Shown here: positions 1 through 42,718 of the stretch, piece after piece | How positions within the stretch are numbered: position 1 is the stretch's first letter | Layout: each line of letters opens with the position of its first letter | Source: an uncultured Clostridia bacterium | GTDB taxonomy: Bacteria; Bacillota; Clostridia; Oscillospirales; Acutalibacteraceae | Reading direction: 5' to 3' | DNA: 42,718 nt | Assembly: GCA_947169745.1 (NCBI GenBank) | Contig: CAMVQZ010000008.1 | Span: 1-42,718, forward strand | Translations under genes and position numbers: made by a program | The notes under the pieces: model-generated | Database searches by the model: none | Seen by the model: only the letters and a program-made list of their open reading frames with translations | What the model was told of the DNA's origin: nothing

Positions 1-145
1 TAGCAGCGTGACGCTGCACCCGTGTTCGCGGTGCGTGCTCGCACTGAGCGATTCGCGTTATCGCTCATTCCATTCGCTCGGTCGTGTGTACCAATACTTT
101 CATTCCGCGGTATCCGGCGCTCACCGCCTCAGACAATGCTCCTCC
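1..145 (+). repeat. Mosaic palindromic repeat, locus A (left side cut by window)
   Basis: GC-rich intergenic block. In order it shows a palindrome (GCAGCGTGACGCTGC near base 4), the segment ACCCGTGTTCGC, a small hairpin unit GTGCGTGCTCGCAC, a CGCTCATTCCATTCGCTCG segment and a GGTATCCGGCGCTCACCGCC segment. The same units in the same order recur at six other loci in this window. No coding potential is believed here. The next promoter (-35 at 173) starts about 28 bp after the block. Confidence 0.85.
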
Positions 146-172: not shown

Positions 173-201
173 TTGACATTTATTTAAGGATTATTTAATA
201 A
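173..201 (+). promoter_or_regulatory. Promoter of the ABC transporter/two-component operon
   Basis: A consensus -35 box TTGACA (173-178) is followed by TTTAAT (194-199, 15-bp spacer) or TAATAA (196-201, 17-bp spacer) as the -10 box. A 10-bp palindrome AGTTATAACT (214-223) lies just downstream and could be an operator. The -35 is clear; the choice of -10 is not. Confidence 0.55.
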
Positions 202-270
202 TTGCAATGGTATAGTTATAACTGTAAGGAACACAAGGTAACAAAATGCGGCAAGAAAGGATGAGTGCTT

Positions 271-13533: not shown

Positions 13534-13606
13534 TTTCTGCACCTCCTTCTGGACTTTTGGCCCCCGTTAAAGGGGCAAGGATATTATGTAAAACATAACA
13601 AATAAT

Positions 13607-13635
13607 ATTATATCACCCCTGACCCAAAAAGTCAA
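13607..13635 (-). promoter_or_regulatory. Promoter of rpsF-ssb-rpsR, overlapped by a dyad
   Basis: On the minus strand TTGACT (13630-13635), a 17-bp spacer and TATAAT (13607-13612) form a near-perfect sigma-A promoter. The whole promoter lies inside an inverted repeat (TTATATCACCC at 13608-13618 and GGGTGATATAA at 13636-13646, plus inner TGAC/GTCA), which could be an operator. Confidence 0.85.
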
Positions 13636-13639
13636 GGGT

Positions 13640-13683
13640 GATATAACACATCCAGCGTTGAGATATAACACATCCAGCGTTGA
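13640..13683. repeat. Perfect 22-bp tandem repeat upstream of the rpsF promoter
   Basis: Two exact adjacent copies of a 22-bp unit that begins GATATAACAC and ends CCAGCGTTGA (13640-13661 and 13662-13683). The unit joins part of the promoter dyad (GATATAA) to part of the repeat-family palindrome (CCAGCG). It lies directly upstream of the -35 box. Confidence 0.9.
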
Positions 13684-13686
13684 TAT

Positions 13687-13798
13687 CCAGCGTCGACGCT
13701 GGACCCGTGTTCACGGTGCGTGCTCGCACTGAGTGATTCGCGTTATCGCTCGTTTGCACTCGCTCGACTGTGTAAGCATAAGCTTTCGTGCCGCGGAA
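13687..13798 (+). repeat. Mosaic palindromic repeat, locus B
   Basis: Begins with the palindrome CCAGCGTCGACGCTGG (13687-13702), then ACCCGTGTTCACGG, GTGCGTGCTCGCACTGAG, a CGCTCGTTTGCACTCGCTCG variant and a TTTCGTGCCGCGG end. It fills the space between the galU stop and the rpsF promoter, palindrome end toward the promoter. Confidence 0.85.
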
Positions 13799-13807
13799 AA
13801 TTATATA

Positions 13808-14680
13808 TCAGAGTGTAGGAACGAGCTTCTTGAGATATGCCTTGAAGGGCTCTCCGAGAGCGGGATTTCTGAGGGCGATTTCTACAGTTGCTTCCAGTAT
13901 TCCCAGCTTGTCGCCCATATCATAGCGTTTTCCTGTGAAGTCAACGCCGGTTATGCCTACTGTCTGAGCCAGAGTTTTCATAGCATCTGTGAGCTGGATC
14001 TCTCCGCCGGCGCCGGGGGCCGTATTGTCAAGTATATCAAATATGTCCGGAGTGAGGACGCATCTTCCGAGAATGGAATAGAGGGAAAGAACAGCTTCCT
14101 TTGTCTGGGGCTTTTCCACCATATCGGTGCAGTTGTAAAGATTATCCTCCAGATGGTCTACCTTGAGTGAGCTGTATTTTGAGATAGCCTCTTCCGGTAC
14201 TGATTTGATACCCACAACTGATTTGCCGTATTTCTCATAAGCTCTGATAAGCTGTCCGCAGGCCGGATCGTCTCCGATTATTACGTCATCTCCGTAAAGA
14301 ACTGCGAAGGGTTCATTTCCCACAAAGGAGCGGGCGCAGTTTACAGCGTGACCCAGACCCTTAGTCTCTTTTTGTCTTACAAAGTAGATATTTGCCAGCT
14401 TTGAGATAGATACAACCTGGTCATATACGTCCTTTTTACCGGAAGCAAGAAGTCTCTCCTCCAGCTCAGGGCTGCGGTCAAAGTGATCCTCGATAACGCC
14501 CTTTCCTCTGTTTGTGATGATAAGGATATCGGTTATTCCGGAGTTGACTGCCTCTTCGACTATATACTGTATAGCCGGCTTATCCACGATGGTAAGCATC
14601 TCCTTAGGCATGGATTTGGTTGCCGGAAGAACTCTTGTTCCAAGTCCTGCGGCAGGGATTACAGCTTTTGTTACTTTCAT
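13808..14680 (-). CDS. galU: UTP--glucose-1-phosphate uridylyltransferase
   Basis: Makes UDP-glucose from UTP and glucose 1-phosphate for cell-envelope glycans and glycolipids. It is 290 residues, normal for bacterial GalU. The nucleotide-binding start is AVIPAAGLGTRVLPATKSMPKEML, followed by VDKPAIQYIVEEAV, the AVLYGDDVI metal-site region and the later KRYDMGDKLGILEATVEIAL. The start has AGGAGGAC. It follows the RING/zinc-ribbon membrane protein by 37 bp, probably in one operon. No classical terminator is seen after it; the locus B repeat follows directly. Confidence 0.96.
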   Translation of the reverse strand: MKVTKAVIPAAGLGTRVLPATKSMPKEMLTIVDKPAIQYIVEEAVNSGITDILIITNRGKGVIEDHFDRSPELEERLLASGKKDVYDQVVSISKLANIYFVRQKETKGLGHAVNCARSFVGNEPFAVLYGDDVIIGDDPACGQLIRAYEKYGKSVVGIKSVPEEAISKYSSLKVDHLEDNLYNCTDMVEKPQTKEAVLSLYSILGRCVLTPDIFDILDNTAPGAGGEIQLTDAMKTLAQTVGITGVDFTGKRYDMGDKLGILEATVEIALRNPALGEPFKAYLKKLVPTL

Positions 14681-14717
14681 TTTTTTGTCCTCCTGTAATA
14701 TTTTGTTTGGTTTAAAA

Positions 14718-15749
14718 CTAGTTGATCGTGGTCAGAAAATACAGAAACGCTCCGTAAAGAATCAGGCTGCATACAGTGATCAGGAATGCGGCTCCGAAGT
14801 GAGTACCACCCTTTGCGGCTATTTTTTTTCGCATTTCTTCTTCATCGGTCCCGGGGTTCTTTTTCCGGATGGCTCTGACGGCTTTCAGAGATTTTTTATA
14901 ATATCCCTTGTTTGCCGTGAATCCGCAGACGAACATCAGTACCCATGTCAGAAGTCCGAATAATCCGGGGAGACACATTATCAGCATCTGCTGAAGGGTG
15001 TAGTGCTCAATGATCCAGTTGTAATACTGGACATAATTGACCCTTGCTCCGGGCCCGGCGATGGCTTCCTGTGCATTTTTCCAGAGATCGTTGGCCCAGA
15101 AATAAGATACTATGTTTTCTCCTATTCTTGTGGCTGCAAACAGCAGAGTAAAGATAATTCCCTTGATGTACTGCTTTCTGAAAAAATACCAGGGTCCTCC
15201 CAGAACAAAAGCGGCGAAGTTGAATTTGGAGGAGCCGGTCTTTTTGATCCTGTGAAATATCGGCAGATAATAAATCGCATTGACACCCGTGTAATCGATC
15301 AGGTCTCCGCTCTTTACACCATCAAAGTCATCGTCTCTCCCGAATTCATTTTCCGAGTCACCGATGCTTCCTGCAAAGAAAACAGAGCCCGGAAAAATAT
15401 CCGGGTCGATCTCCGGGGCGTCGTTCTTTTTGCTGTTATTATCATTGATATCAAAGCTTCCCGAAAGAAAATCTCCGCATTTTTCACAGACTATTGAATC
15501 CTTGCTGTTTTTGTGTCCGCATCTGCGGCAGATGAAGCTGTCCTCCGTTTCCAGAGGTCTGTCCGGAATCTCTTCGTCGGGGCTTTTCCAGGTCTCTCCC
15601 TTTTTATGAAGAGACGGGAATATGCATTTGCCCTTTTCCATATAGCAGTCCCTGTGATATGGCGCTCCGCATTTCGGGCAGACTACAACATCGTCGCCTT
15701 CTTTGAACACTACAGAGCATACGGGACATTTTTTTCCAAAAAAATCCAT
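14718..15749 (-). CDS. RING-like/zinc-ribbon protein with DUF2628-type membrane domain
   Basis: Protein of 343 residues with two zinc-binding modules and a membrane part. Residues 8-50 (CPVC...CPKCGAPYHRDCY...C) look like a prokaryotic RING finger; residues about 74-92 (CRRCGHKNSKDSIVCEKCG) form a zinc ribbon. A linker of about 90 mostly acidic residues leads to a DUF2628-like region (FNFAAFVLGGPWYFFRKQYIKGIIFTLLF, near 174-202) and further hydrophobic segments near 255-275 and 320-342. Its start has GGGAGA and a consensus promoter at 15799-15827. It is followed by galU. Function unknown. Confidence 0.8.
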   Translation of the reverse strand: MDFFGKKCPVCSVVFKEGDDVVVCPKCGAPYHRDCYMEKGKCIFPSLHKKGETWKSPDEEIPDRPLETEDSFICRRCGHKNSKDSIVCEKCGDFLSGSFDINDNNSKKNDAPEIDPDIFPGSVFFAGSIGDSENEFGRDDDFDGVKSGDLIDYTGVNAIYYLPIFHRIKKTGSSKFNFAAFVLGGPWYFFRKQYIKGIIFTLLFAATRIGENIVSYFWANDLWKNAQEAIAGPGARVNYVQYYNWIIEHYTLQQMLIMCLPGLFGLLTWVLMFVCGFTANKGYYKKSLKAVRAIRKKNPGTDEEEMRKKIAAKGGTHFGAAFLITVCSLILYGAFLYFLTTIN

Positions 15750-15798
15750 AAATATCTCCCGATTTCATTATTAAAACTATTTTACCCTATTTTGAACA

Positions 15799-15827
15799 AT
15801 TATACAATATTTTTTTTAATTAATCAA
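15799..15827 (-). promoter_or_regulatory. Promoter of the RING/DUF2628 gene and galU
   Basis: On the minus strand TTGATT (15822-15827), a 17-bp A/T-rich spacer and TATAAT (15799-15804). The -35 box begins 6 bp from the palindrome of repeat locus C. Confidence 0.8.
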
Positions 15828-15833
15828 CCGGCG

Positions 15834-16062
15834 GCAGCGTCGACGCTGCACCCGTGTTCGCGTAGTCGCTCGTTTACACTCGCTCGGTCGTGCGCACATA
15901 AGCTTCCGTGGCGCGGCATCCGGCGCGAACTGCCCCGGCCTCTGCGCCTCCCTCCGCCGCCGCACCCCTTTCGGGGCGCTTTTCGCGGCTGGATTATTCT
16001 GAGCTGCGGTATTTTTCTTTCCGACAGCGTGCGCCTGTTTTGTGTTATGTAGTCGGGATAGT
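15834..16062 (+). repeat. Mosaic palindromic repeat, locus C
   Basis: Starts with the palindrome GCAGCGTCGACGCTGC (15834-15849), then ACCCGTGTTCGCG, a CGCTCGTTTACACTCGCTCG segment, CATCCGGCGC, and the second module seen elsewhere in reverse (CCGCCGCCGCACCCCTTTCGGGGCGC, then CGGCTGGATTATTCTGA and a GCGCCTGTTTT end). The GTGCGTGCTCGCAC unit is missing from this copy. Intergenic, no gene. Confidence 0.8.
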
Positions 16063-16104
16063 CTGTGCGTGTCTGGTTTTGTTTATTATTATCTGATAGC
16101 TTTG

Positions 16105-16456
16105 TGCGGTGCGTGCCTTCGGCACGGGACAAAAGGTGGATCCACAAAAGGGACTGCGCCCCCTTTGAGGTTGCCCCCTTTTGAAATCCCCCTCCTTGAA
16201 CCCCTGCTGTGTTTGTCGGGTAGTATTTATGCTGAGGGCGGCTTTTTATGAACCGGGCAGAACGGATATGTAAGCTGTCGGTCTGTATGAGAATCCGCGG
16301 CTACATACGAACCTCCGCATTTGTTCACAAAATCAGAGGAACATACGAAGTTTCTTTAGCCGTCAGCACGTTCGGCACAAAGAAAAGGATGAGGGATTTC
16401 CAAAAGGGGGAACCTTGGTTCACCTCTTTGGCTCCGTGCCGGAGGCACGCACCGCA
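16105..16456. mobile_element. Long-armed inverted-repeat element
   Basis: Outer arms are a perfect 13-bp inverted pair, TGCGGTGCGTGCC (16105-16117) and GGCACGCACCGCA (16444-16456). An inner pair is CCCCCTTTTGAAATCCC (16174-16190) against GGGATTTCCAAAAGGGGG (16393-16410), one base different. Sequence between the inner arms (about 200 bp) is not recognised. It may be a non-autonomous element or a decayed insertion. Small open frames crossing it look spurious. The stretch 16457-16614 shows nothing. Confidence 0.55.
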
Positions 16457-16614
16457 GAGATTGTCGCTTCGGAAAAACAAGCTGGATGCGCAGCATAATG
16501 CTTAGTCAATAAAATTATACCATTCAGTCCGGATGCCTGTGCTCTCTGTACGTTTTATTGCTTCTGCCGAAAAAAATATTCTTTGATAAAGCAGTTCTCA
16601 TAGACGGGAATATA

Positions 16615-16623
16615 TGCTATAAT
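16615..16623 (+). promoter_or_regulatory. Extended -10 promoter of the frameshifted lipoprotein
   Basis: TGC followed by a perfect TATAAT (16618-16623). No good -35 at normal spacing. It overlaps an in-frame ATG at 16622, which argues that translation starts later, at GTG 16649. Confidence 0.5.
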
Positions 16624-16648
16624 GAAAAAACGCTTTGGAGGGATCACT

Positions 16649-17336
16649 GTGAAAAGAGCTGTTTCTGTTATTCTGATATTTTCGGCGGTCATAGGCTGTT
16701 TTATTTTTTCGTCCTGCGCTAAGTCGGATCTGAGCTATGATCTTGACGACCCGTCAGGTATGACCTTTGTCAATATCCATTTCCTCATAGAGGGAGAATA
16801 TGATAGTGACGAATATCTAAAAGGTCTTAAAAATGAGCTGAAGGATGAATTAAGCTACGGCTGTCTTTGCATACTTAACCAGAATGCAAAGGGAGATGTG
16901 ACAATACCAAAAAAGGGCAATAATAAGCTTGATGTGGTGTGTGTGACAGAAAGACCCGGGGATAAGAGCGCTCAAAACAAGATGATCTCCCTGACTCTTG
17001 AAAGAAAAGTGGTTATTTTATATAAGCTCTGTAATTACAGCTCACCTGGTACCACACTTAAGGCTGTGGATTTTTCAACAAATGTAGAACACTGTTGTCA
17101 GCTCCTTCTGTAACTGCAGCGCGCTTTCCGGTATCACAAATCAGAAAACCCGTTCCGATTCCTTCACCAACTGTCCAGTGTTAGAGGCAAATAAAAAGAA
17201 ATATGACGCAAAGACAGGGGAGGCTGTGCATTTACATAAGATCGGAACAAAAAAGCCTGTTGTGGAAACTTCTATATTCATCGGGGAAACTATGTCGGAT
17301 GAAGCCTGGAAATATGTGGAAACCATCGTAAAGTAA
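16649..17336 (+). pseudogene. Small lipoprotein gene with a +1 frameshift
   Basis: Reading from GTG 16649 (GGAGGG six bases upstream) gives a signal peptide with lipobox FSSC and then about 140 residues ending at a stop at 17111. The next frame is open from 17088 and continues to a stop at 17334-17336 with sensible sequence (SGITNQKTRSDSF..., GTKKPVVETSIFIGETMSD, AWKYVETIVK). Joining the frames between 17088 and 17110 would give a protein of about 229 residues. Either the gene is broken by one base, or this is a sequencing error or recoding site. No slippery run is obvious there. The family is not recognised; it resembles small secreted lipoproteins with a beta-rich body. It is isolated between repeat blocks. 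Confidence 0.65.
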
Positions 17337-17439
17337 TAATCTGAAACGGGTGAGTCCACGGCAGCGTTGAAATAAGTATGAAATTATAGTTTGCAAAACA
17401 TTTATACTATCAGTCTGTGACAATTAATCCAGATAACAC

Positions 17440-17740
17440 AAAGTAGGCGCTCAGTGCCGAGAGAATGGGATAACGGAAGTCAGAATAAACCAGACGCAAG
17501 AAGCAGCCCGTAAGGGGTGCGGCGGCCATCGTGACGCTGGACCCGATTCGCGGGGTTCGCTCATTCCATTCGCTCTGTCGTGCGTGTGGACACTTTTGTC
17601 CCGCGGCAAAAAGATAGTCGGTATCCTCTTTACACAGATCTGACAACCGCGCCACGAGAGTATATGTATGTACGACAGAGCGAGTGTAAACGAGCGACTA
17701 CGTGAATTGCTCAGTGCGAGCACGCACCGCTGGGGTTTGT
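17440..17740. repeat. Mosaic palindromic repeat, locus D (two opposed copies)
   Basis: Starts with the AGGCGCTC...CCGTAAGGGGTGCGGCGG module, then a forward partial copy (GTGACGCTGGACCCGATTCGC, TTCGCTCATTCCATTCGCTC, TTTTGTCCCGCGG) and then a reverse copy (CGCGCCACGAGAGTATATG, GACAGAGCGAG, CTCAGTGCGAGCACGCACCGC). The opposed copies can pair with each other over part of their length. No gene. Confidence 0.8.
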
Positions 17741-17741
17741 G

Positions 17742-17920
17742 TAAAGGCAACACCGCACAGAGATTGCGCGTCAGATTTCGAGCATAATTTTTTGTCAGAT
17801 TGACAAAATCGACGCAGGAATACTGACGTATTTCAAGGAGATTTTGGCGAAAATGACGGAAAATTTGCCGAAAGATGGCGTGCAAAGCCGTCAGGCGGTC
17901 TTTGTGCGGTGTTGCCTAAA
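17742..17920. mobile_element. MITE-like element 2 with TAAA target duplication
   Basis: A 171-bp element (17746-17916) has 14-bp perfect terminal inverted repeats GGCAACACCGCACA, flanked by TAAA on both sides (17742-17745 and 17917-17920). The flanks joined across one TAAA give GTG-TAAA-ATAATTCTG; the uninterrupted version is seen at locus G (minus strand, GTGTAAAATAGTTCTG, near 42640). This supports a true insertion into a repeat. The interior matches element 1 at 12015-12172. It encodes no protein. Confidence 0.85.
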
Positions 17921-18173
17921 ATAATTCTGGGAGAAACAGGCGCTCTATTCCGAGAGAGTGATATGATAGAAGTTAGTAAAAACCAGCCGCATATAGCAGC
18001 CCGTAAGGGCTGCGGCGGCGAGGGGTGGGAGCATTGTCTGAGGCGGTGAGCGCCGGATGCCGCGCCACGAAAGTATATGTACACACGACCGAGCGAATGA
18101 AATGAGCGACTACGCGAACACGGGTGCAGCGTCGACGCTGCCGAATCGCTCAGTGCGAGCACGCACCGCTGGG
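17921..18173 (-). repeat. Mosaic palindromic repeat, locus E (upstream of prfB)
   Basis: The most complete copy. In order on the plus strand: ATTCTGGGAGAAACAGGCGCTC, GTTAGTAAAAACCAGCCGC, the hairpin GCAGCCCGTAAGGGCTGC, GGCGAGGGG, GCGCCGGATGCCGCGCCACG, ACGACCGAGCGAATGAAATG, CGCGAACACGGGT, palindrome GCAGCGTCGACGCTGC (18126-18141), CAGTGCGAGCACGCACCGC. It ends about 9 bp before the prfB -35 box. Confidence 0.85.
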
Positions 18174-18181
18174 AAAAAGTC

Positions 18182-18210
18182 TTTACAATGGTGCAAATTT
18201 ATTTTATAAT
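18182..18210 (+). promoter_or_regulatory. prfB promoter
   Basis: TTTACA (18182-18187), a 17-bp spacer and a perfect TATAAT (18205-18210), about 35 bp before the prfB start codon. Confidence 0.85.
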
Positions 18211-18245
18211 ATACAGTGAAATAAAAAGGAAATGGTGGAGCGTTT

Positions 18246-19382
18246 ATGATACAATTTGAAGAACTGAGATTAGAGCTGGAGGGACTGGATCCCGAAATAA
18301 AGGAGCTTGCAAATGCTCTGGGACTTGATAAACTGAAAATGGAGATAGAGCAGCTGGAGCAGAGGGCGTCACAGCCGGGCTTCTGGGATGACGCTGAAAA
18401 TTCCCAGAAGATACTGCAAAAGACAGGGGCTCTAAAAAACAAGGTCGCCGAATACGACGGACTTGTCACAGCCTTTGAGGACGCAATGGCGCTTATTGAG
18501 CTGGCTGACGAAGAGGAGGATCTTTCCCTTCTGGAGGAAGCTCAGGGCGAGGTGGAAAAGATAAAGACAAGTTTGGAAAACCAGAGACTCCAGACCCTTC
18601 TTACAGGAGAGTATGATTCCAAGAATGCGATCCTGACATTCCACGCAGGTGCCGGCGGCACAGAGGCTCAGGACTGGGCTATGATGCTTTACAGGATGTA
18701 TATGAGATGGGCAGAAAGACATAACTTCAAGGTCAAGGAGGTTGACTATCTTGACGGAGAGGAAGCAGGTCTGAAAAGTGCAGTTCTGCTTATCGAGGGG
18801 GAAAACGCCTATGGTTATCTCAAGAGTGAATCAGGCGTGCACAGACTTGTAAGAGTATCTCCCTTTGATTCATCGGGCAGGAGACATACCTCATTTGCTT
18901 CTCTGGAGGTAATGCCGGAGATAGATAATACTATCGAGGTGGATATCAGACCTGAGGATATCAAGATGGATGTATATCGTGCCAGCGGCGCAGGCGGACA
19001 GAAGGTCAATAAGACCTCATCTGCAGTAAGACTTACTCATATTCCCACCGGAATCGTAGTTGCGAGCCAGGTGGAAAGAAGCCAGTACCAGAACAGGGAT
19101 GTGGCTATGACTATGCTTAAATCAAAGCTTATCGAGATAAAGGAAAGAGAGCATCTCGATAAGATCGAGGATATCAAGGGCGTCCAGAAGGAGATCGCAT
19201 GGGGCGCTCAGATCAGATCTTATGTATTTATGCCATATACAATGGTCAAGGATCACAGGACAAGCTTTGAAACCGGAAATGTAAACGGCGTTATGGACGG
19301 AGATCTGGACGGCTTCATAAATGCTTATCTCAAAGCTGCCAGCCTGAACCAGCTTAATGAGGATTTTTCAGAGGAAGTCTGA
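18246..19382 (+). CDS. prfB: Peptide chain release factor 2
   Basis: RF2 releases the finished peptide at UGA and UAA stop codons. It is 378 residues with a helical N-terminal domain, the tripeptide anticodon region (SPFDSSGRRHTSFAS, near 203-217) and the catalytic GAGGQKVNKTSSAVRLTH loop (GGQ near 247-249). In many bacteria prfB needs a programmed +1 frameshift at a CUU UGA C site near codon 25. Here the frame is continuous: the matching site reads CTT GAT at 18324-18329 (Leu27-Asp28), so the autoregulatory stop is absent. GTGGAG precedes the start. addB follows after 74 bp. Confidence 0.97.
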   Translation: MIQFEELRLELEGLDPEIKELANALGLDKLKMEIEQLEQRASQPGFWDDAENSQKILQKTGALKNKVAEYDGLVTAFEDAMALIELADEEEDLSLLEEAQGEVEKIKTSLENQRLQTLLTGEYDSKNAILTFHAGAGGTEAQDWAMMLYRMYMRWAERHNFKVKEVDYLDGEEAGLKSAVLLIEGENAYGYLKSESGVHRLVRVSPFDSSGRRHTSFASLEVMPEIDNTIEVDIRPEDIKMDVYRASGAGGQKVNKTSSAVRLTHIPTGIVVASQVERSQYQNRDVAMTMLKSKLIEIKEREHLDKIEDIKGVQKEIAWGAQIRSYVFMPYTMVKDHRTSFETGNVNGVMDGDLDGFINAYLKAASLNQLNEDFSEEV

Positions 19383-26845: not shown

Positions 26846-26939
26846 TAGAATTTTATATATTTTTTGACGATTTTTTTCAGTTTTTTCTAAAAATGGCAAT
26901 AAAAGGAAGCAGGGGATGAAGAATAGATATTGACGGAAA

Positions 26940-27306
26940 GTGAAGTAACGGAAGTCAGAATAAGCCAGCCGCGTATAGCAGCCCGTAAGGACTGCGGCGG
27001 CCAGCGTGACGCTGCTAAAATAATTCTAGGAGAAAGCAGGCGCTCTGTGCCGAGAGAGTGATATGATAGAAGTTAGTAAAAACCAGCCGCGTATAGCAGC
27101 CCGTAAGGACTGCGGCGGCGAGGGGTAGGAGTATTATCTGAGGCAATACGCGCCGGATGCCGCGCCACGAAAGTATATGTACACACGACCGAGCGAATGA
27201 AATGAGCGATAACGCGAATCGCTCAGTGCGAGCACGCACCGCGAACAAGGGTGCAGCGTCGACGCTGCCGAATCGCTCAGTGCGAGCACGCACACGTCGA
27301 CGCTGG
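26940..27306 (-). repeat. Mosaic palindromic repeat, locus F (tandem modules, upstream of rfbA)
   Basis: Two copies of the module with CCAGCCGCGTATAGCAGCCC and the GTAAGGACTGCGGCGG hairpin, one after the other, then GCGCCGGATGCCGCGCCACG, ACGACCGAGCGAATGAAATG, CAGTGCGAGCACGCACCGC, palindrome GCAGCGTCGACGCTGC (27253-27268), a second CAGTGCGAGCACGCAC and a partial CGTCGACGCTGG. Ends 6 bp before the rfbA -35 box. Intergenic. Confidence 0.85.
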
Positions 27307-27312
27307 GCTGGG

Positions 27313-27341
27313 TTGACTAATGGCAGATTGTGTAATATAAT
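27313..27341 (+). promoter_or_regulatory. rfbA promoter
   Basis: TTGACT (27313-27318), a 17-bp spacer and a perfect TATAAT (27336-27341), about 100 bp upstream of the rfbA start. Confidence 0.85.
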
Positions 27342-35183: not shown

Positions 35184-36269
35184 ATGGGTACACAACAGCC
35201 TGAAAAGAAAAATGTTCTCGGTGATCTTATTGAAATAGGAAAAGCCAAGGGACAGCTTACCAATAAAGAGATCTTTGATGCTACAGGTGAGATGGATATC
35301 GAGCCTGAACAGATGGAGCGCTTTTATGATATGCTGGAGTCCAGCGGAGTTGAGATAGTCGAGACGATGGAAGACATTATGCTGGATGATGAGGAGCTTT
35401 CAAATATCACCGATGAAAGTGAAAAGGAAGCCTCCTACTCAGATACTATAGTTGCCACGGATGACCCGGTAAGGATTTACCTCAAGGAGATAGGAAGAGT
35501 TCCGCTTCTGACTCCTGAGGAGGAGACAGAAATAGCCAAAAGGATACTGGAGGGAGACGATCAGGCAAGCCAGAGACTTGTAGAAGCAAACCTACGTCTT
35601 GTGGTCAGTATTGCAAAAAGATATCTGGGAAGAGGAATGCAGTTCCTTGATCTTATCCAGGAGGGAAATTTAGGCCTGATGAAGGCTGTCGAGAAATTCG
35701 ACCATACGAAGGGCTTTAAGTTTTCAACATATGCCACATGGTGGATAAGACAGGCTATAACCAGAGCTATTGCCGATCAGGCAAGAACTATCCGGATACC
35801 TGTACATATGGGAGAGACAATAAATAAGATAAAGAAGGCTTCAGGTCAGCTCCTTCACGAAAACGGACATGAGCCTACAATGGAGGAGATAGCGGATTTT
35901 CTGAATGTTCCTATTGATAAGATCAGGGAGGCTATCAGGGCTTCTCAGGAGCCGGTGTCTCTGGAGACGCCTATCGGAGAAGAAGAAGACAGCCATCTGG
36001 GAGATTTTATTCCTGATGACTCAGCAATCACTCCCCAGGATGCCGCTTCTCAGTCAATGCTGAAGGAGCAACTGTCATCTGTGCTTTCTACACTGACTCC
36101 CAGGGAGGAAAAGGTCATTCGTCTCCGTTTCGGACTTGATGACGGCAGACCCAGAACTCTTGAAGAGGTGGGAGAAGAATTCAATGTCACAAGAGAGCGT
36201 ATCCGCCAGATCGAGGCAAAGGCTCTCAGAAAGCTCCGCCACCCCAGCAGGAGCAAAAAACTGAAATGA
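35184..36269 (+). CDS. rpoD: Primary-type RNA polymerase sigma factor, first copy
   Basis: Sigma-70/SigA-type protein of 361 residues. Region 1.1-like [17 protein letters not shown] lies near 14-30, and region 1.2 from [17 protein letters not shown] (near 93-109). Core binding is [27 protein letters not shown], melting/-10 region [24 protein letters not shown] (Trp186, Trp187), finger [17 protein letters not shown], and region 4.2 [30 protein letters not shown]. It differs from the second copy at Gly210 (HMGETIN; the usual residue is Val) and ends at RSKKLK, lacking the usual DFL(D/E) tail. It begins 13 bp after dnaG with AGGAGG in front. Confidence 0.95.
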
Positions 36270-36283
36270 GGTTCGGAGAATAA

Positions 36284-37252
36284 ATGGAAAAGGAAAAATA
36301 TATTGAAGAAGCAGGGGACAGACTGATTGAAAAGGGTGCCGCAGGGGGCAATATACTTTATCGCGATGATATTCTCAGTGAGTCGGGGGAAAAGTTGACT
36401 GATTCAGAGGATATGCTGTCCCTGCTGCGGATGATTGCCGATGAGGGAATGACTGTGGTCGTTCTCAGGGATGATGAAATACCCGGAGACAAAAAGGCTT
36501 TTGCAAAGAAAATAAAGAACAGCTGTGATGAAGAAAAAAGAGCAGCCGTTTCCGGTATTGATACTGTGGAGACGTACCTCCGGGATATTGGTGAAGTATC
36601 TCTGCCCTCATACGAAACAGAAATGAAGCTTATGGACGATATTGCCGGGGGCGATGAAAATGCTGCCGGAGAGCTGATCTCATCCGGTCTTGTCCTGCCT
36701 GTGGTGATGTCTGAAAAATACATAGGCAGAGGCGTCTTGTATATGGATCTGGTGCAGGAGGGTAATCTTGCCCTGATGAATGCAGCGGAAAGCTTTGATT
36801 TTAATTCTAATATCAGCTTCTTTGCCTTTGCTGCCATGATGATAGATGCCGCCCTGAGAAATGCCGTCCGTGAGTGTGACGCTGCTCTGAATATTCCCTC
36901 GGGGATGACCGGGGATGTGGAAAAGATACGAAAGGAGTATGAGGCTCTTAAATCAGAAAAGGGACGTGAGCCTACAAGCTCGGAGATGGCAGAAAGACTT
37001 GTTCCCGGGAAAAAAGAGAAAAAACCGGAGAAGAAGAAAAAAGAGCCGGGAAGCGGTGATGAAGCGCTTTCCAGGCAGGTACAGGAAATGCTTGCAGCCC
37101 TGCCCGAAAGAGAGGCAAGGGTCATATCATTGAGATTCGGACTGGGAGGAAAACCTCCTATGACCTGCGAGGAGATCGCAGAGGCTGTCTCTCTTGATGT
37201 CGGAGAAGTCAGGCTTGCAGAGGAAAATGCAATGAGAATACTGGGAAAATAA
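36284..37252 (+). CDS. Degenerate sigma-70 family protein between two sigma-A genes
   Basis: Protein of 322 residues, intact and in the same operon (14 bp after rpoD copy 1, GGAG before the start). The sigma-70 frame is recognisable: VETYLRDIGEVSLPSYETEMKLM (region 1.2, near 95-117), EKYIGRGVLYMDLVQEGNLALMNAAESFDF (region 2.1-2.2, near 144-173) and ALPEREARVISLRFGLGGKPPM (region 4.1, near 272-293). But the melting region reads FAFAAMMIDAALRNAVREC, with the Trp pair and the region 2.4 QARTIRIP residues gone; the region 3.2 finger is replaced by a Lys/Glu linker (about 242-260), and the recognition helix is AEAVSLDVGEVRLAEENAM instead of [14 protein letters not shown]. It could bind core RNA polymerase but probably cannot open a normal promoter. 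I do not know a named family for it. Confidence 0.75.
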   Translation: MEKEKYIEEAGDRLIEKGAAGGNILYRDDILSESGEKLTDSEDMLSLLRMIADEGMTVVVLRDDEIPGDKKAFAKKIKNSCDEEKRAAVSGIDTVETYLRDIGEVSLPSYETEMKLMDDIAGGDENAAGELISSGLVLPVVMSEKYIGRGVLYMDLVQEGNLALMNAAESFDFNSNISFFAFAAMMIDAALRNAVRECDAALNIPSGMTGDVEKIRKEYEALKSEKGREPTSSEMAERLVPGKKEKKPEKKKKEPGSGDEALSRQVQEMLAALPEREARVISLRFGLGGKPPMTCEEIAEAVSLDVGEVRLAEENAMRILGK

Positions 37253-37312
37253 TGGTGACTGAGCCTTAGGGCAAACAGATTCAGTTCATCCATAAGGAAA
37301 ACGGAGGAAAAA

Positions 37313-38413
37313 ATGTCTAATAACACACAACCTGATAAAAGATCAGTTTTAAAGGATCTTACAGAGCTGGGAAAAACAAAGGGTCAGCTCACAAACAAGG
37401 AAATACTGGATGCAATCGGCGAAATGGATATAGACGCCGAGCAGATGGAAAAATTCTATGATGTTCTTGAAACCAGCGGTATCAAGATCGTTGAAACAGT
37501 AGATGATATTATGCTGGATGATACTGAGCTTTCCAGTATCGGAGACGAAACGGATGATGACAATTCAGACTATCTGGATTCAGTCTCCGTAGACGACCCT
37601 GTCAAGATATATCTCAAAGAGATAGGAAGAGTGCCTCTCTTGTCTATAGAGGAGGAGACCAATCTCGCTATCAGAATACAGAACGGGGATGAGGAAGCAA
37701 AGCAAAGGCTTTCAGAGGCAAATCTCCGTCTTGTAGTAAGTATTGCAAAGAGATATCTGGGAAGAGGAATGCAGTTCCTTGATCTGATACAGGAGGGAAA
37801 TCTGGGACTTATCAAGGCCGTGGAAAAGTTCGATCACACAAAGGGCTTTAAGTTTTCCACATATGCTACATGGTGGATAAGGCAGGCTATAACCAGAGCT
37901 ATCGCAGATCAGGCAAGGACTATCAGGATACCTGTACATATGGTGGAGACCATCAATAAGGTGAAAAAAGCCTCCGGTCAGCTCCTCCACGAAACAGGAC
38001 ATGAACCCTCCGCAGAGGAGATTGCTGAGCTGCTGAGAATGCCTCCGGATAAGGTCAGAGAGATAATGAAGGTTTCTCTGGAGCCGGTTTCTCTGGAAAC
38101 ACCTATCGGAGAGGAAGAGGACAGCCATCTGGGAGATTTTATTCCGGATGAGGATGCTCCGGCTCCCCAGGATGCAGCTTCAAACGCTCTTCTTAAGGAG
38201 CAGCTGGCAGCGGTACTGGAGACCCTGACCCCCAGAGAAGCAAAGGTGCTCAGTCTCAGATTCGGACTTTATGACGGACGTTCCAGAACTCTTGAAGAGG
38301 TGGGAGAGGAATTCAATGTCACAAGGGAGCGTATCCGCCAGATCGAGGCAAAGGCGCTGAGAAAGCTCCGTCACCCCAGCAGAAGCAAGAAGCTCAAGGA
38401 TTTTCTTGACTGA
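37313..38413 (+). CDS. rpoD: Primary-type RNA polymerase sigma factor, second copy
   Basis: Sigma-70/SigA-type protein of 366 residues, very close to the first copy from region 1.2 through the recognition helix. It retains Trp186-187-type residues in [13 protein letters not shown], the canonical HMVETIN, the finger [17 protein letters not shown] and the full ending [10 protein letters not shown]. Region 4.1 reads [17 protein letters not shown]; canonical SigA has [15 protein letters not shown], so some positions have drifted. The start has GGAGGAAAAA. The region 60 bp upstream has no clear promoter. It is followed by a strong terminator. Which of the two copies is the essential sigma-A cannot be told here; the intact tail favours this one. 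Confidence 0.95.
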
Positions 38414-42389: not shown

Positions 42390-42418
42390 ATTCTACCACA
42401 AAACATATTCTTTTTCAA
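42390..42418 (-). promoter_or_regulatory. metA promoter
   Basis: On the minus strand TTGAAA (42413-42418), a 17-bp spacer and TAGAAT (42390-42395), about 40 bp before the metA start. The palindrome of locus G starts 11 bp beyond the -35 box. Confidence 0.8.
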
Positions 42419-42429
42419 CCCTCACTCAA

Positions 42430-42718
42430 CCAGCGTGACGCTGGACCCATGTTCGCATTATCGCTCATTCCATTCGCTCTGTCGTGCGTACATATACTTT
42501 CGTCGCGCGGCATCCGGCGCTCGTTTCTTTTGTCAATACTCCCTACCACCGCCGCCGCAGCCCTCACAGGCTGCTTCTTGCGGCTGGTTTATTCTTACTT
42601 CTACTGTTTCACTCCCTTGACAGTAAGCGCCTGTTTTTTCAGAACTATTTTACACAGATCACCCAGCGGTGCGTGCTCGCACTGAGCAATTCGGCAGCGT
42701 GACGCTGCACCCGTGTTC
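42430..42718 (+). repeat. Mosaic palindromic repeat, locus G (right side cut by window)
   Basis: Starts with CCAGCGTGACGCTGG (42430-42444), then ACCCATGTTCGC, CGCTCATTCCATTCGCTC, GCGCGGCATCCGGCGCTCG, and the reverse of the second module (CCGCCGCCGCAGCCC, GCGGCTGGTTTATTCTTAC, AAGCGCCTGTTTTTTC). A new copy begins with GCGGTGCGTGCTCGCACTGAG and GCAGCGTGACGCTGC at 42665-42710 and runs off the window. Near 42640 it shows the empty insertion site matching MITE-like element 2. Confidence 0.85.

Follow-up and report, generated by a model that had tools for sequence, protein, structure and literature searches.

The window, that is, the whole stretch of DNA analysed, is contig 8 (42,718 bases), one of the 177 that make up a 2.53-Mb genome likely to belong to the genus Ruminococcus, its AddA sequence being 51 and 53% identical to those of two uncultured Ruminococcus MAGs. 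An earlier note, made from the letters of this DNA, had described seven intergenic blocks of palindromic repeats, five of which turn the end carrying a CAGCG-type palindrome, here called the cap, towards the -35 box of a promoter. All seven blocks, with their palindromes and promoters, were found at the positions it gave (Table 1), the cap palindromes starting at 13688, 15835, 18127, 27254 and 42431, and at 4. The promoters faced by the cap are those of rpsF, the RING gene, prfB, rfbA and metA, each reproduced to the coordinate, and the gene names hold (the products are S6, PrfB, RfbA and MetA, and the RING gene is Prok-RING_1). The gaps from cap to -35 agree with the earlier figures to within about one base, at 6 bp for the RING gene, 11 for metA, 50 for rpsF, about 40 for prfB and about 44 for rfbA. 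Locus A stands as the exception it was said to be, with a truncated inner end and not the cap towards its promoter.

The view that the blocks share the same ordered modules is correct in part. The distal part is missing from the rpsF locus and locus A, one module stands inverted in the composite element behind the prfB element, and at rfbA there is an additional partial copy. Tandem 22-mers separate the repeat copy from the promoter at rpsF, and the tail of the prfB element, at the end opposite the cap, is interrupted by a second MITE-like repeat (17746-17916).

Table 1. Repeat elements, target duplications and promoters in the window.
Feature	Position	Strand	Remarks
Locus A element	2-145	+	Cut by contig start; cap 4-16, GTGCG hairpin 31-44, truncated body
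Locus A promoter	173-202	+	Faced by inner end of element
rpsF promoter	13607-13635	-	-35 at 13635-13630
rpsF locus	13685-13797	+	Short copy, first module only; cap palindrome 13688-13701, GTGCG hairpin 13716-13729
RING-gene promoter	15799-15827	-	
RING-gene locus	15832-16040	+	Near full-length element without tail; cap palindrome 15835-15848, 6 bp to -35
Composite element behind prfB element	17441-17725	-	One module inverted (17441-17708)
prfB element, distal copy of 9-bp target-site duplication	17726-17734	-	CCCAGCGGT
prfB element	17735-18164	-	Cap side 18164; tail ACACAAAC at 17735
prfB element, promoter-side copy of duplication	18165-18173	-	CCCAGCGGT; junction 17 bp from -35 (18182)
prfB promoter	18182-18210	+	Similar TTTACA/TATAAT pair before prfB in element-free relatives
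rfbA locus	26936-27308	-	Two stacked partial/full elements, cap units repeated
rfbA promoter	27313-27341	+	
metA promoter	42390-42418	-	
metA element	42436-42658	+	Junction 17 bp from -35
Further copy, cap only	42668-42718	+	Cut by contig end

Orientation and promoter association across the genome

The prfB copy matches 66 pieces of its own genome, in which the palindrome GCAGCGTCGACGCTG occurs, at up to one mismatch, 113 times forward and 115 times in reverse, the backward control giving 0 and 1. A profile was built from 60 stretches fetched around repeat places, and hence picked because they bear the repeat. Searching with it gave at least 170 matches at no fewer than 101 loci within 535,343 bases, the window included, and these copy counts are lower bounds because places on C134, C146, C150 and C157 and further palindrome places were not taken in, and because only part of the initial candidates was scored. 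The ends of every locus were assigned to classes according to the position in the profile that they reached, with genes called by our own script and promoters scored by another of our own, using a sigma-A weight matrix; 47 of the 202 ends, which lay at a contig edge or had no called gene, were dropped.

Cap ends (the CAGCG/GTGCG side) face the start of a gene in 79 of 83 cases and the end of a gene in 4, as against starts at 27 of 53 tail ends (Fisher p 1.6e-9, loci being treated as independent in this as in the binomial tests); the figure for ends lying inside the element is 7 of 19. Genes were called on either side of 54 loci. At 25 of these the two genes run in the same direction and the locus has just one cap end, which in all 25 points towards the start of the downstream gene. 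A near-consensus sigma-A promoter (score at least 9) lies at 66 of the 79 start-facing caps, against 36 of 124 control gene fronts (p 1.2e-14), and at 8 of 27 start-facing tail ends. The median score over the 79 caps is 11.97, the shuffled mean being 5.6, and the spacer is 17 in 54 of the 66 promoters, the promoter picked at L074:6095 and L112 probably not being the true one. In a small sample of the same genome chosen blind to the repeat, the cap lies just upstream of two of seven exact-consensus promoters. The earlier note had staked its reading on a preference for promoters and for one orientation among genome-wide copies, and over the 101 loci that preference is present.

Target duplications and distance to the -35 box

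In the genome and its relatives together 135 tails were collected, of which 107 are usable, the others having no flank or being duplicates. The nine bases that follow the tail recur exactly upstream at 21 of the 107, compared with 1.9 expected when nine-mers are dealt among the loci, and at 41 when one mismatch is allowed, compared with 10.6 expected, so about a quarter of these 41 are expected by chance; tandem copies are included in both counts. The other 66 tails have no nine-base repeat within one mismatch.

With tandem cases and those behind another tail removed, 32 duplication-defined cases are left, 25 of them with a promoter score of 7 or more. The junction in these 25 lies 16 bp (10 cases), 17 bp (9), 18 bp (2) or 11, 21, 22 and 30 bp (one each) from the -35 box, which places 19 of the 25 scorable junctions 16 or 17 bp upstream of it. 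The 14 exact duplications give distances of 16 bp (5), 17 bp (5) and 18, 21 and 30 bp (one each), one case having no promoter that reaches a score of 7. Two of the seven cases without a promoter scoring 7 still lie at 16-17 bp with weaker scores, and two have no upstream sequence. To the 19 junctions at 16-17 bp the own genome contributes 4 and seven relatives 14; the remaining one belongs to an untraced locus, there being four (L211-L214) among 30 tail loci that were not traced to a genome. In at least four of the one-mismatch cases (L110, L276, L283 and L294) the mismatch falls on the last base, which fits the hairpin of the element, and the duplication there is probably 8 bp long. The window itself provides an exact duplication at 17 bp, that of CCCAGCGGT at prfB, which is outside the tail list because its tail is split, and one with a single mismatch at the same distance, at metA (CAACCAGCG at 42427-42435 and CACCCAGCG at 42659-42667). 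Duplications of 8-9 bp, taken together with an offset of 16-17 bp, mean that insertion alone can produce the observed order.

Distances measured from the hairpin are more spread. The first GC-rich hairpin lies 4-50 bp from the -35 box, at 12-17 bp in 26 of the 58 cases measured in the own genome, and 34 of these 58 caps begin at 4-15 bp, nearer to the -35 than 16-17; no GC-rich hairpin is present within 70 bp at 8 of the 66 cap-end promoters.

Relatives and ISLre2-type insertion sequences

A search with the whole element matches 7 of 99 genomes, the own genome and six others of the genus, mostly as fragments. Of 64 genomes from the genus, 19 contain the tail CCCAGAATTATTTTACACTAAC at up to one mismatch, with 39 occurrences in the own genome and none for the backward control; the other 45 genomes, some of them incomplete, are without it, as are all 293 that represent other genera of the order. 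In the order-wide sample of 295 genomes, two of which belong to the genus, the tail is present in one, the own genome. Viral contigs contain no exact match to the tail, and carriage by phage was rejected. In G041 the cap is shared and the body different, and it lies beside the -35 in four of the five loci listed, as judged by eye; G047 has an unrelated palindrome-capped repeat at the same place.

The region before prfB was compared in 15 relatives. In L149 a repeat capped by a palindrome lies at the -35, in L152 there is a GC-rich block about 40 bp off, and none was seen in the other 13. That the element supplies the -35 box was rejected, as a similar prfB promoter is present in relatives without the element. 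Even the nearest relatives reach no more than 83% similarity for most of the prfB query and 84% for a part, a divergence at which the intergenic DNA beyond the promoter cannot be aligned for an empty-site comparison.

The Pfam family PF06782 has matches in 6 of the 64 genomes of the genus, and in three of them (G047, G054 and G012) the gene starts just inside the tail, which there reads as the left inverted repeat GTTAGTGTAAAATAATTCTGGGAG of an insertion sequence (IS), slightly different in G012. The G047 protein (475 residues), the one protein put to the test, scores 218.7 bits against the NCBIfam ISLre2-family cut-off of 200. The right end of the IS is TTCCCAGAACTAYTTGACAC plus four bases. 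Both non-nested right ends (G054 and G017) face a promoter and lie 17 bp from TTGACA, counted from the terminal C, while the IS of G047 is inserted in an apparent element body (compare L221), with TCTGGGCTC(G) on both flanks. The own genome has no match to PF06782, a negative that rests on the six matching relatives, none of 14 control genomes matching this family. An IS256-type Mutator transposase was rejected as the mover, there being none in the own genome and matches in 6 of the 14 controls.

According to Guerillot et al. (2014; PMC3942029), insertion of TnGBS and the ISs related to it is oriented and takes place 15-17 bases upstream of the -35 box, the distance from the right inverted repeat being 16 bp and the direct repeats 8 or 9 bp long. 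The elements described here have the same target upstream of a sigma-A -35 (16-17 bp in 19 of 25), the same length of direct repeat (exact over 9 bp in 21 of 107, with several others of 8 bp) and one fixed orientation (79 of 83 caps), and their left inverted repeat is that of ISLre2-type ISs within the genus. They differ in that no ISLre2-family (UPF0236) transposase was found with them in the own genome, in that they are mostly 100-270 bp or shorter fragments, in high copy and stacked into mosaics, and in that inverted repeats of 18-39 bp are not present at both ends; the tail fits (about 24 bp, with a terminal C), whereas the cap is a variable hairpin. Like bacterial MITEs they are short, numerous, flanked by insertion duplications and share one terminus with an autonomous IS, but the second terminal repeat of a classical MITE was not found, the other end being a palindrome that varies between and within species.

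Proposed origin and alternatives

Orientation and promoter association across the genome, target duplications, the distance kept from the -35 box and the sharing of a left inverted repeat with ISLre2-type ISs are all observed. The blocks are very probably non-autonomous elements of the ISLre2 type (TnGBS, p-MULT 3, Mutator-superfamily DDE), together with mosaics derived from their repeated insertion. An ISLre2-family transposase of the kind present in relatives would have been supplied in trans to move them, inserting them one way, so that the hairpin-capped end faces the promoter and 16-17 bp separate the junction from the -35 downstream of it, and creating a target duplication of 8-9 bp. Later insertions at the same site, tandem duplication and inversion would have given rise to stacked copies and extra cap units, which in turn would make the gaps variable, from about 4 to 50 bp.

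The roles that the earlier note had suggested, insulator, terminator, upstream activator or target site, fare unequally. Duplications and offset argue for the last, and little was found for the other three. Terminator-like sites in 13540-18260 number nine against 4.8 expected (sd 2.3), two of them overlapping the rpsF promoter and one, weak and on the minus strand (17985-18001), lying within the prfB element; no Rfam family matches the window at the gathering score, and a structured RNA was rejected on that ground. Most likely no insulator, terminator or activator role is needed for the observed order. That the blocks are cis-regulatory parts (insulator, upstream activator or roadblock) kept by selection, with function setting their orientation, we regard as unlikely. 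Such parts would agree with the strong orientation and the near-consensus promoters, with a promoter-side hairpin that changes in sequence and keeps its pairing, and with the G-rich spacers at element promoters of the own genome (0.33 against 0.19, significant). Yet in other species the spacer difference falls short of significance (0.27 against 0.19, p 0.23), only L149 and L152 among the 15 prfB fronts have anything comparable, most genomes of the genus, some incomplete, have no tail, and duplications with a fixed offset account for both position and orientation by insertion. As a signal for the choice of target, too, G-rich spacers were rejected, being significant in the own genome alone.

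Untargeted insertion, followed by purifying selection against hits in genes and core promoters, is in our view very unlikely. Tail ends are indeed spread, about half of them at gene starts, and an insertion falling downstream of the -35 box would presumably do harm, but neither the orientation of the caps, without exception in the co-directional gaps, nor the sharp peak at 16-17 bp is explained in this way. The mosaic intergenic arrays of palindromic modules, with more than 100 palindromes per genome, recall the BIME/REP sequences of E. coli (PMC2817692). Spread of REP/BIME-type elements by a RAYT (Y1 transposase) is nevertheless scarcely credible here, as Y1_Tnp (PF01797) has no match in the own genome, in a search in which 5 of 14 controls match, and as insertion makes 8-9-bp duplications and is locked in orientation to the promoter. 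BOX elements of Streptococcus are likewise mosaic intergenic arrays of palindromic modules.

The promoter-facing end

Returning to the proposed insertion by an ISLre2-type system, the end that faces the promoter was analysed at 21 duplication-defined junctions. A perfect stem of at least 5 is present at the promoter-facing terminus in 13 of the 21, compared with 1.9 in shuffles, and at the tail end in none; the remaining 8 have no such stem at the promoter-facing end. The stems vary while their pairing is kept (CCAGCG/CGCTGG, CCGGCG/CGCCGG, GCGGAG/CTCCGC, GCAGCG/CGCTGC and CAGTGCG/CGCACTG), and at some loci the palindrome lies partly within the target copy. Comparison of this end of the element with the right inverted repeat of the IS revealed no likeness. 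A hairpin is unexpected at an end where the IS has an ordinary inverted repeat, and we infer that it acts as the second end. A further step, which we offer tentatively and consider somewhat doubtful, would be a DDE transposition in which one end, the ISLre2 left repeat, is defined by sequence and the promoter-facing end by structure, as a short hairpin free to change in sequence.

Fresh insertions at the same site account for the stacking at prfB and L062. Extra cap units, tandem arrays (L091, L079 and L120) and inverted modules (L120, L094, L105 and 17441-17708 of the window) indicate later rearrangement. A docking order in which the copy nearest the promoter is the youngest was not supported, the proximal copy being the better-scoring one in only 5 of 9 multi-copy loci.

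Implications

An odd pattern that looks regulatory is recast here as an insertion rule, its likely source being a transposition system of known kind that targets its insertions, here in a new and non-autonomous form. Open-licence papers on Ruminococcus, on ISLre2/p-MULT/UPF0236 or, among those listed, on MITEs with target duplications yielded no account of such elements, which is no proof of their absence from print; the one paper on ISLre2 together with MITEs (PMC9208149) concerns IS-gene couples. A single genome preserves, as a natural archive, dozens of insertions directed at promoters (66 cap ends beside a promoter in the part examined). Junctions defined by duplication mark the -35 box to within a base or two, and could aid the mapping of promoters. 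The repeat also accounts for many assembly breaks, contig ends often lying within it.

If the transposase truly uses a hairpin as its second end, this would bear on how ISLre2 and TnGBS recognise promoters and how their orientation is set. Were that end defined by structure, many unrelated bodies could become substrates of one promoter-targeting transposase, and each Ruminococcus species would grow its own family of promoter-tagging repeats.

Promoters beside the elements

In the Ruminococcus-type genome, the -35/-10 spacers adjoining the palindromic mosaic elements are G-rich and C-poor (G 0.33, C 0.04, n=66), against G 0.19 and C 0.11 in comparison spacers from other promoters of the same genome (n=36); in other species the G excess beside elements is not significant. 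A search made independently of the repeat sampled seven exact-consensus promoters (TTGACA-N16-18-TATAAT) in this genome, and the cap, the palindrome end facing the promoter, lies immediately upstream of two of them (L182 and L190). The rpsF promoter is enclosed by a long inverted repeat, in which 20 pairs are counted with G-T allowed, adjoined by two tandem 22-mers with CCAGCGTTGA. Elsewhere in the window stand three tandem sigma-70-type genes, two of them full, with regions 1.1 to 4 and DNA 80-82% alike across two stretches, and between these two a divergent third.

Repeat organisation and copies

The repeat also occurs as a tandem array of three 323-bp units, each with two cap modules, one of them inverted, plus a tail module. 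The repeat seems to have broken up the assembly, since many contigs of this genome, among them C8 (the window's own), C18, C29, C72 and C120, have their start or their end within it; copy numbers of the repeat are accordingly lower bounds.

A second MITE-like repeat, 171-172 bp long with ends GGCAACACCGC...GCGGTGTTGCC, has 11 copies in the 535 kb of this genome examined (the window and stretches chosen for the mosaic repeat), most of them with TTAA on both flanks. Its window copy interrupts the tail of the prfB element, the end opposite the cap.

Locations of the features described
Feature	Sequence	Position
Sigma-70-type genes	window	35184-38413
Tandem 323-bp units	L120	291-1224
Inverted repeat, rpsF promoter	window	13605-13649
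Second MITE-like repeat	window	17746-17916
Second MITE-like repeat, 10 other copies	L068, L069, L082, L087, L097, L103, L104, L109, L114, L116	
Exact-consensus promoters sampled	L170, L174, L178, L182, L186, L190, L194
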